This document shows positions 1 through 37,383 of a DNA stretch of 39,184 nt, in pieces (position 1 is the stretch's first letter; the number at the start of each line of letters is the position of its first letter). The translations under genes and the position numbers were made by a program. Source of the stretch: a bacterium (GTDB lineage Bacteria > Patescibacteriota > Minisyncoccia > Sungbacterales > HO2-52-23); NCBI GenBank assembly GCA_030697525.1, contig JAUYPW010000017.1, positions 1 through 39,184 of the forward strand, given 5' to 3'. The notes below the pieces were generated by a model that was not told where the DNA came from, made no database searches, and saw only the letters and a program-made list of their open reading frames with translations.

Positions 1-150
1 CCAAATTCTCTCTTCCCTTCGGGTGAATCAATTCCCGCCCATCTTCTGCGTTACTTGTCGCTCGTGTATCTAAAGATACACTTCGCTCCTCGCGCCTTGA
101 ATCTGGGACGGGAATTGATTCACTAAATTGATGTTAGTTCGGAATCCTGG
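1..150 (+). repeat. Structured repeat element A (3' part)
   Basis: This is the 3' part of a structured element that recurs at 7006-7272 and 37113-37383; its 5' part lies outside the window. Visible parts are a mini-hairpin CCC-TTC-GGG, a long perfect helix (arm GTGAATCAATTCCCG near 22-36 with CGGGAATTGATTCAC near 109-123), and inside it a hairpin GTGTATC-TAAA-GATACAC. The single-stranded flank CTTCGCTCCTC..GCCTTGAAT matches the other copies, whereas the helix sequences differ but stay paired. It ends just upstream of the ubiquitin-like operon, so it may lie in that operon's leader. Function is unknown. Confidence 0.7.
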
Positions 151-170
151 TCTCCAGAAAGGAGGGGGAA

Positions 171-5430: not shown

Positions 5431-7020
5431 GTGAATAAAAACGAAACCATATTATTGGGAGGAGCCAGCACTCTTACTTTGGAGGATTGTTTTAAGATTG
5501 GCAATCAATACGCAGAAGTGCATCTACACCCTAAAGCAAAGAATATGATGCTGGATTCGCATCGCGTACTCACCGATTTTTTAAAAAAACGTCTGCCGGT
5601 TTACGGCTCTAACACTCACTTCGGCAATCAGGTAAATCTTCCCGATACCTTGCTTATCAAGGACCCCGATGAATATAAAGAGGGAGTAAATAAGAGACAA
5701 CTCAACCTGATAGAATCACATAACTGCGGCTTGGGAGCAGAAGTATCGCAGGAAATAGTCAGAGTAACAATGGCTCTGCGAGCTCATTGTCTGGCACTTG
5801 GATATTCGGGTGTGCGGCCGGAAGTGGCGGAACAGCTGATAAATTTTATAAATAAAAAAATACATCCCGTTGTCCGCACTTACGGTTCGGTAGGAGCCAG
5901 TGGAGACTTAATTCCGCTTTCAGCCATTGCCTCTGCCCTTTGTGGATTAGAAACAGATGTATATTTTATGAATAAAAAAGTATCGGCACAGCAGGCGATT
6001 AAAATGGCTGAATTAGATAAGCTTAATCCGGAGGTGAGAGAAGGCCTGGCTTTGGCTAATGGGACTTCTTTTATGACCGCCATAGCAACTCTTGCGGCCT
6101 ATAAACTCCAAAGACTTTTTAACAGCATGCTGGCCTCTCTGGCTTTGTCTTTGGAAGCCCTGGAAATAATAGGAGACGCTCACCATCCTTTGGTGCATAC
6201 GCTAAAACGCCAGAAAGGCGAACAGGAAATCAATAATTTTTTTCTAAATTTCTGGAAAGGAAGTCAACTTATAAAAAAACTAGACGATATAAGAAAAGAT
6301 ATTTCTGAAAAAATTAAAAACAAAGAAATCATAGAAAAAATTCCGGGTCTTCAAGACTATTATTCATTGAGATCAGTCGCTCAAGGGTTTGGGCCATTTA
6401 AAGAAAATCTTGAGCGCGCGGTTGCTTGGATTGAAGGAGAAATAAACTCTGTTAATGACAATCCGATTATTTCTGTAAAACCTCCTAAAATTTATCATTG
6501 CGCAAATTTTATGGGATATTACGTGACTGATTCCTGCGACATTCTAAAAATGGATATTGCTCAAGCCTCCACTTGGCTGCACGCCATTTTAGCTAATTTA
6601 GTGCATCCCAGAAAAAATTCTGGTCTGCCAGCAAACTTAGTCAAACAGCCGGGGATAAACAACGGGTTCCGCCCCATTCAAATTCTAGCCGCTTCTCTCG
6701 CGGTCCAGAACCGCAAACTTGCTCAAGCGCAACAATCTTTTATGTTGCCCACCGAAGGAGATAATCAGGATGTAAATAGTCTTGGCACTCATGCCGCCCT
6801 GGATTTAAAGAAATCGGTTGATAATCTGGAATATCTGGTATCAATTTTATTACTCGCATCCGTACAGGCTCTGGAACTGCGAGGATTATCTCTTGCATCT
6901 CTTGAAGCTCGCAAGATTCATCGCGCAATAAGAAAAGTTTCTTCGTTTTTAAATTCAGATCGGTCTTTGACTGTTGATATAGAGAAGGTTGTTGTCCTTA
7001 TGAAAGAGCACGGGATATGA
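5431..7020 (+). CDS. MIO-dependent ammonia lyase/aminomutase (HAL/PAL family)
   Basis: A 529-residue protein with a GTG start. The MIO triad A156-S157-G158 is in 'GSVGASGDLIPLS'. The catalytic loop Tyr is Y58 in 'VYGSNTHFG', close to the family Y-G-x-N-T-x-F-G. The selectivity pair in 'QLNLIESHNCGLG' is Ser-His, as in histidine ammonia lyase, but the later motif is 'NQDVNSLGTHAA', which is PAL/TAL-like where HAL has NQEDHVSM. The substrate (His, Phe, Tyr or a 2,3-aminomutase substrate) is therefore uncertain. There are no urocanase or other hut genes nearby, so ordinary histidine degradation is unlikely. The last codons and stop lie inside the outer helix of element B. Confidence 0.9.
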   Translation: MNKNETILLGGASTLTLEDCFKIGNQYAEVHLHPKAKNMMLDSHRVLTDFLKKRLPVYGSNTHFGNQVNLPDTLLIKDPDEYKEGVNKRQLNLIESHNCGLGAEVSQEIVRVTMALRAHCLALGYSGVRPEVAEQLINFINKKIHPVVRTYGSVGASGDLIPLSAIASALCGLETDVYFMNKKVSAQQAIKMAELDKLNPEVREGLALANGTSFMTAIATLAAYKLQRLFNSMLASLALSLEALEIIGDAHHPLVHTLKRQKGEQEINNFFLNFWKGSQLIKKLDDIRKDISEKIKNKEIIEKIPGLQDYYSLRSVAQGFGPFKENLERAVAWIEGEINSVNDNPIISVKPPKIYHCANFMGYYVTDSCDILKMDIAQASTWLHAILANLVHPRKNSGLPANLVKQPGINNGFRPIQILAASLAVQNRKLAQAQQSFMLPTEGDNQDVNSLGTHAALDLKKSVDNLEYLVSILLLASVQALELRGLSLASLEARKIHRAIRKVSSFLNSDRSLTVDIEKVVVLMKEHGI

Positions 7021-7272
7021 ACCAGTATCAGCTTTAGAAGCTAAAAAATGAGATGATTTCGCGGCACGACAACGAAGGTGTATGTTTACATACACCAAGG
7101 AGGAGTAACAAAGAAATCAACCATTTTTTAGCTTCCCCAGAGGGCGGGACAATTTACGTCATCTTCTGCGTTTCTCGTTGCTCGTGTATCTAAAGATACA
7201 CTTCGCTCCTCACGCCTTGAATATGACGTAAATTGTCTCCGCTAAATTGATACTGGTTCGTATCTCGCGCTC
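7006..7272 (+). repeat. Structured repeat element B
   Basis: A complete copy of about 267 nt. Helices seen: outer (7006-7030 with 7248-7272, 25 positions with two G-U and one mismatch); GAAGCTAAAAAATG/CATTTTTTAGCTTC; TGATTTC/GAAATCA; hairpin GGTGTATG-TTTA-CATACACC; mini-hairpin CCC-CAGA-GGG; GACAATTTACGTCAT/ATGACGTAAATTGTC; hairpin GTGTATC-TAAA-GATACAC. Compared with element C, helix bases change on both sides while the unpaired stretches (GCGGCACGAC, AGGAGGAGTAACAAAG, CTTCGCTCCTC, GCCTTGAAT) are kept. It could act as RNA or as a DNA hairpin element. No ORF in it looks real. Confidence 0.85.
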
Positions 7273-7292
7273 TAAGATGGTAAGATTAAGTA

Positions 7293-37112: not shown

Positions 37113-37383
37113 AGACCGCGGGATACAAACCAGAATCAAGTTTAGAAGCTAAAAAATGAGATGATTTCGCGGCACGACGACGAAGGTGTGTCTTTAGACA
37201 CACCGAGGAGGAGTAACAAAGAAATCAACCATTTTTTAGCTTCCCCAGAGGGCGGGACAATTTTGACTATTCTTCCAGCGTTTCTCGTCGCTCGCGTATC
37301 TAAAGATACGCTTCGCTCCTCGAGCCTTGAATATAGTCAAAATTGTCTCCGCTAAATTGATACTGGTTCGTACCCCGCGGTCT
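37113..37383 (+). repeat. Structured repeat element C
   Basis: A complete copy of about 271 nt. Outer helix 37113-37138 with 37358-37383 (26 positions, three mismatches), differing in sequence from that of B outside ATAC(G)AACCAG. GAAGCTAAAAAATG/CATTTTTTAGCTTC is identical to B. Hairpin GGTGTGTC-TTTA-GACACACC, long helix GACAATTTTGACTAT/ATAGTCAAAATTGTC and hairpin GCGTATC-TAAA-GATACGC all show paired changes against B. The 64-aa ORF read through it is a shadow. It fills the gap between the 56-aa gene and the 60-aa membrane protein. Confidence 0.85.

Follow-up and report, generated by a model that had tools for sequence, protein, structure and literature searches.

A shape-conserved hairpin element, probably mobile and REPIN-like, in the genomes of Patescibacteria

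Three stretches of a 39,184-nucleotide window, contig C7 of a 746 kb Patescibacteria genome that is 93% complete (G000:C7:1-39184), are copies of one element of ~270 bp. The element is defined by a conserved folded shape and not by a gene, and it is read here as a family of gene-less mobile DNA hairpins resembling REPINs, with a probability of roughly 0.6. A preliminary description had grouped the three stretches (A, B and C) as one family, and all sequences that it quoted were found in the window. The inverted-duplicate architecture, the tandem G·A core, the mobility and the single-hairpin versions were absent from that description. Elements B and C are complete, and element A is cut off by the contig start.

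From the outside inward, the element consists of an outer helix of ~26-32 bp, a hairpin (hA), a mini-hairpin CCC-N3/4-GGG, a second hairpin (hG) and the other outer arm. Element C, a full doublet at 37113..37383 (+ strand), was delimited by folding, alignment to 27 other elements and pair counts, as was its outer helix (arms 37113-37138 and 37358-37383). Its hairpin hA, with the arm GAAGCTAAAAAATG / CATTTTTTAGCTTC, spans 37145..37243 (+ strand) and contains a purine-rich unit core at 37166-37226 on the + strand; hG spans 37252..37352 (- strand), with its unit core at 37271-37331 on the - strand. Between both hairpins the mini-hairpin CCC-AGA-GGG was read from the sequence at 37244..37252, with no strand assigned. 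Its loop in B and C had been given as CAGA, the first C of which belongs to the preceding hairpin; the form CCC-TTC-GGG given for A was right. Element B is a full doublet at 7005..7273 (+ strand; outer helix arms 7005-7030 and 7248-7273), with hA at 7037..7135 (+ strand; unit core 7058-7118) and hG at 7144..7242 (- strand; unit core 7161-7221 on the - strand). Element A (1..155, + strand) retains the last 15 nt of hA, the mini-hairpin (15-23), hG (24-122; unit core 41-101 on the - strand) and the 3' outer arm (123-155).

When read on the opposite strand, hG aligns with hA; judged by this alignment, the two hairpins are one unit in opposite orientation. The unit is ~100 nt long. An arm, TTC and a purine-rich box lead into a 7 bp stem closed by a small loop; another purine-rich box, GAA and the complement of the arm follow. 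A + unit was followed by a - unit in every paired locus examined, mostly at a spacing of 102-108 nt; spacings of 73-154 nt were found in other lineages. Solo elements carry one core at the tip of one long hairpin.

Folding with RNA parameters yielded -127.1 kcal/mol (z -11.9) for element C and -127.4 kcal/mol (z -13.0) for element B, and 0 of 200 shuffles were as good in either case. DNA parameters gave z -12.8 for C (+ strand) and -10.3 for B (- strand). Across 28 diverse full elements, 89.4% of cells were paired, 65 of 86 pairs had changed on both sides, and 349 compensatory cells were counted versus 108 in shuffles. The covariation score of 0.408 (0.158 shuffled) was reached by 0 of 500 shuffles, and slid alignments scored only 0.055-0.092. 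Covariation, already noticed among the three copies in the window, supports a Y-shaped fold composed of the outer helix and two hairpins. The outer helix is perfect or near-perfect, and a single-stranded element would form a three-way junction.

End sequences vary (GGAG, AGAG, GGTCAG, AGAAC, GGGCTC), and comparison of the ends across copies revealed no constant cleavage motif such as GTAG. The commonest outer arms (e.g. window 136-155 and 37362-37383) contain a T-loop-like GTTCGAATCC, ~4 variable bases and then CTCC/CTCT, as an inverted pair; the T-loop-like sequence is lacking in other subfamilies of the element. A tRNA origin of the ends was rejected, the likeness to tRNA 3' ends of the source genome (12 to 16 of 21) being barely above shuffles (maximum 13 to 15).

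With G·A pairs admitted and a one-position shift between the strands, the 'internal loop' of the core becomes a regular helix. Positions (-7,-6)/(+5,+6) read 5'-GA-3'/5'-GA-3' in ~131 of 150 units, and positions (-10,-9)/(+8,+9) in ~109-128 of them. The separator pairs are Watson-Crick and interchangeable: C-G 68/G-C 62 and C-G 76/G-C 63 at two positions, and C-G 115/T-A 15, G-C 72/A-T 42 and G-C 139 at the others. In 140 distinct box pairs the five separator positions paired in Watson-Crick fashion in 88%, versus a mean of 59% and a maximum of 64% in 1000 shuffles. Two separators were split CG 62/GC 58 and CG 69/GC 60 among distinct box pairs, counts that exceed the number of independent swap events because the C-G/G-C swap largely separates two unit types. 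The core thus read looks like a non-canonical helix of tandem G·A pairs split by covarying Watson-Crick pairs, and the G·A pairs are probably of the sheared tandem type. In this model the purine-rich strand of the unit can form a continuous tip, in which the 7 bp stem is followed by G·A pairs alternating with Watson-Crick pairs.

A DNA search located ~20 places with element matches in the source genome. Covariance-model searching, which the preliminary description had asked for, was done for units with a model of the hairpin core (R1) and found 38 of them in this genome. The tally, which allows for copies divided between contig ends, was ~15 doublets, one truncated copy (L179:989) and three solo hairpins (L021, L022, L179:7899). 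An arm completing A had been predicted upstream of the window; it cannot be read at A itself because window base 1 is the contig end, and it is present in sister copies L012-L014 as GAAGAGAGAATTTGaGCC...GGCCAAATTCTCTCTTC. The missing half of A was seen in sister copies L012-L016 and reads GAAGAGAGAATTTGAGCC...GGCCAAATTCTCTCTTC. About a dozen contigs of the source assembly start or end within the element (window 1-155 and ends of C4, C5, C8, C14, C18, C24, C25, C26, C28 and C31), with identical overlaps of 133-141 bp. The repeat breaks the MAG assembly. A histidine ammonia-lyase-like gene in the window (5431-7020) takes its last codons and its stop codon from element B, the reading frame ending at 7020 and the element starting at 7005.

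The element was found in 67 of 384 genomes of the class at E<=0.01 and in ~44 (manual count) at <=1e-5, so that some weak single matches may be chance; a search of other CPR genomes had been proposed. Elsewhere in the phylum, three genomes contained 6-12 units. The distribution is patchy. Scanning of 84,980 species genomes with a 23-base pattern retrieved Patescibacteria-type assemblies only, plus one record labelled just 'bacterium'. No true match was obtained in the plasmid and phage collections (IMG/VR patterns, PLSDB, INPHARED), which give no support to a virus or plasmid origin; the lone IMG/VR pattern match lay within a phage tail-like gene, was not matched by the model and was set aside as chance. 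No description was found in the part of the literature covered on repeats, MITEs and structured RNAs in Patescibacteria, and the family is apparently undescribed so far.

At two loci of one genome (G207), copies with 99.6% identity across 271 bp sit between flanks that are unrelated. An insertion at a gene start in G177:C30 is absent from the syntenic sites of congeners G143 and G187, which are empty, and the G207:C2 insertion is missing in G257. Judged from these comparisons, copies of the element move within a genome. No target duplication was visible at the recently moved copies or the empty sites of G207 and G177, and TA stands on both sides of the element in a minority of copies. Elements are intergenic, with no preferred gene orientation; they lie between tandem, divergent and convergent genes alike, and a terminator role was rejected on this account. 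One copy, from a Harrisonbacteria assembly, shares 92.7% identity with element C. The other DNA of that assembly (5.7 kb) matched the source genome in short stretches, mainly at 69-72%, plus one 31-base match at 97%. Horizontal transfer is suggested by the contrast between 92.7% identity of the element and ~70% of host DNA, and the element probably passes between lineages.

Other palindromes were observed in or near the element. A second palindrome, CCCGTTAGAAG...CTTCTAACGGG, is nested in the unit at L079, L216, L219, L037 and L040, in three different genomes, near one recurrent site, CTCGTC, that is apparently duplicated; it looks like a CGTC-tagged REP that took the unit as its target. At L004 (1501-1787) and L089 a different palindrome, CCTGCCTGCCGGTAGGCAGG, and a relative interrupt the unit, either close to the GAAATC arm or within a purine-rich box. 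Locus L038 (G030:C12) contains a RAYT-like Y1 gene with the palindrome GTTTAGAGGTTGAACCTCTAAAC upstream of and within its reading frame, and an element copy ~0.9 kb away.

A REPIN is made of two inverted imperfect hairpins forming a larger hairpin, with compensatory changes, intergenic location and no target duplication (PMC3116915). The movement of REPs, which are 20-40 nt long (PMC3733652), is attributed to RAYT/TnpA-REP enzymes; their substrates are folded single strands, in one group palindromes interrupted by a bulge (PMC8266576). The element shares with REPINs and BIMEs the inverted pair of imperfect hairpins, the intergenic location, the many copies and the compensatory changes, and also the single units (PMC3116915, PMC3733652); at its recent copies and empty sites no target duplication is evident either. 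Inverted palindromes with a pairing spacer were found at the paired loci examined, where the outer helix pairs. That the element is a REPIN in the strict sense, moved by RAYT (Y1) transposases, would fit this description and the RAYT-like genes in many of these genomes, and is nonetheless unlikely. Of 25 genomes with the element 17 had Y1/RAYT genes, as did 16 of 25 without it; several element-rich, near-complete genomes have no Y1 match, and the element-rich genomes without one include G234, G250, G338 and G348. RAYT was rejected as the mobiliser, since its gene does not track the element. No unit flanks the RAYT genes of G000 or G030, the nearest lying ~0.9 kb away (G030:C12), and one such gene in G030 bears a different palindrome. 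The unit, at ~100 nt with a 60-nt conserved G·A tip, is larger than REPs of 20-40 nt and has neither a GTAG nor a CGTC tag at one end, and ~15 copies contrast with hundreds. CGTC-type REPs likewise have no known enzyme (PMC3733652). The element is best read as working like a REPIN, and it is not classed as one.

A classical MITE, derived by deletion from an insertion sequence of IS630/mariner type and, like Correia elements, bearing terminal inverted repeats and duplicating a TA target, is quite improbable. The element agrees with Correia repeat enclosed elements, ERIC and other bacterial MITEs in being gene-less, 100-300 bp long, intergenic and strongly structured, with inverted repeats and mobility in trans (PMC2649163, PMC2229807), and some copies have TA at both ends. 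It differs from them in that neither the termini nor a TA duplication is constant, the structure being conserved in place of the terminal sequence. The ends differ wholly from one subfamily to another, as do those of doublet and solo elements in one genome, and several unrelated ends occur even in the source genome. A non-exhaustive search found no constant terminal repeat shared with an insertion sequence. DDE_3, the IS630-type transposase, was found in 0 of 15 element-bearing genomes and was dropped as a mobiliser candidate, and no target duplication is visible where copies have moved recently or where sites are empty. A retroelement-derived (SINE-like) origin was also rejected, the reverse transcriptase RVT_1 having no association with the element (8 of 15 element-bearing versus 6 of 15 element-free genomes). 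No autonomous, gene-carrying version was seen. The stretches that separate adjacent copies hold genes (AAA ATPase, HU-like protein, ribonuclease Y-like) that look host-type on inspection by eye, which speaks against a larger gene-carrying element.

The preliminary description had left open a structured RNA or a DNA hairpin processed by an enzyme, and the evidence favours DNA. A family of structured non-coding RNAs, with many gene copies each transcribed into a single three-way junction, would account for the strong RNA fold and covariation, the intergenic location and the many mini-hairpins compatible with an RNA UNCG loop; it is of low probability. The strand-specific wobble tolerance expected of a structured RNA was not seen over the whole structure in fixed orientation (G·T 110 versus A·C 122). 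This whole-strand test alone showed no strand bias, and splitting by hairpin revealed opposite biases: G·T:A·C was 33:13 in hA and 14:49 in hG (leaving out one misregistered 3-pair segment; Fisher p 2.7e-7, the cells not being independent events), and the outer helix was balanced at 38:36. Both hairpins tolerate G·T, each on its own purine-rich strand. These strands lie on opposite DNA strands, so a single RNA cannot explain the pattern; with the same core on both strands, one RNA would show two unlike loops. The opposite tolerance can be explained by two inverted sites that are each read in folded, single-stranded form, and two oppositely transcribed RNAs could explain it as well. The core inner stem gave GT 45 and AC 3 after similar units were removed, 35 of the 45 coming from one position. 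Counts in the arms outside the core (GT 66, AC 97) cannot carry a conclusion alone because they are inflated by a conserved asymmetric mismatch. G·U pairs are few on either strand (4.6% and 6.3%). Searching Rfam at gathering score matched only a tRNA in the window and gave no match for the element, in line with the earlier statement that no named family fits; the patchy distribution and the mobility also count against an RNA family. A DNA element is favoured over a single structured RNA by the presence of one unit on opposite strands, the opposite mismatch directions and the mobility.

It is well established that mutation can correct imperfect palindromes, and the outer helix and arms have no excess of G·T over A·C, but quasipalindromes kept paired mainly by template-switch correction, without selected function, are very unlikely, as the G·A core has kept its lack of standard complementarity and has separators that covary, the unit geometry is constant across many families, and copies move and spread.

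For the REPIN-like DNA hairpin, a single-stranded phase would arise during lagging-strand synthesis or otherwise. An enzyme supplied in trans would recognise the G·A-rich tips of both ends, one in the top strand and one in the bottom strand, and would cut close to the base of the outer helix. The element would then be inserted elsewhere with no evident duplication of the target, a route that has been proposed for REPINs. Arm sequences can vary freely provided that pairing is kept, and quasipalindrome correction may help to maintain it. Integron attC sites are recombination sites that are likewise conserved as folded single strands with variable arms; the element differs in having two inverted units each, no R/L boxes and no cassette arrays. 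Parvovirus (AAV) terminal repeats are also T- or Y-shaped, with two internal hairpins standing on an outer stem. This is an analogy only, with no sequence relation claimed, and the element is dispersed inside bacterial chromosomes, not placed at genome ends.

Patescibacteria are thought to take up DNA readily. As a tentative extension, which we consider possible, the element may be a phylum-wide mobile DNA recognised by the shape of its single-stranded tandem-G·A hairpin, passed between lineages and moved in trans by a structure-specific Patescibacteria recombinase or a housekeeping enzyme, neither RAYT nor a classical DDE transposase. Some 15 copies of 270 bp in 0.75 Mb, moving and apparently crossing lineages, are unexpected because the genomes of Patescibacteria are small. 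The element also shapes gene boundaries, as at the stop codon supplied by B and the G177 copy at a gene start. Its tandem G·A pairs are overlooked by ordinary folding programs, and the core offers a good case on which to study how shape is conserved in a DNA motif. Finding the enzyme of the element could reveal a new single-strand DNA recombinase.
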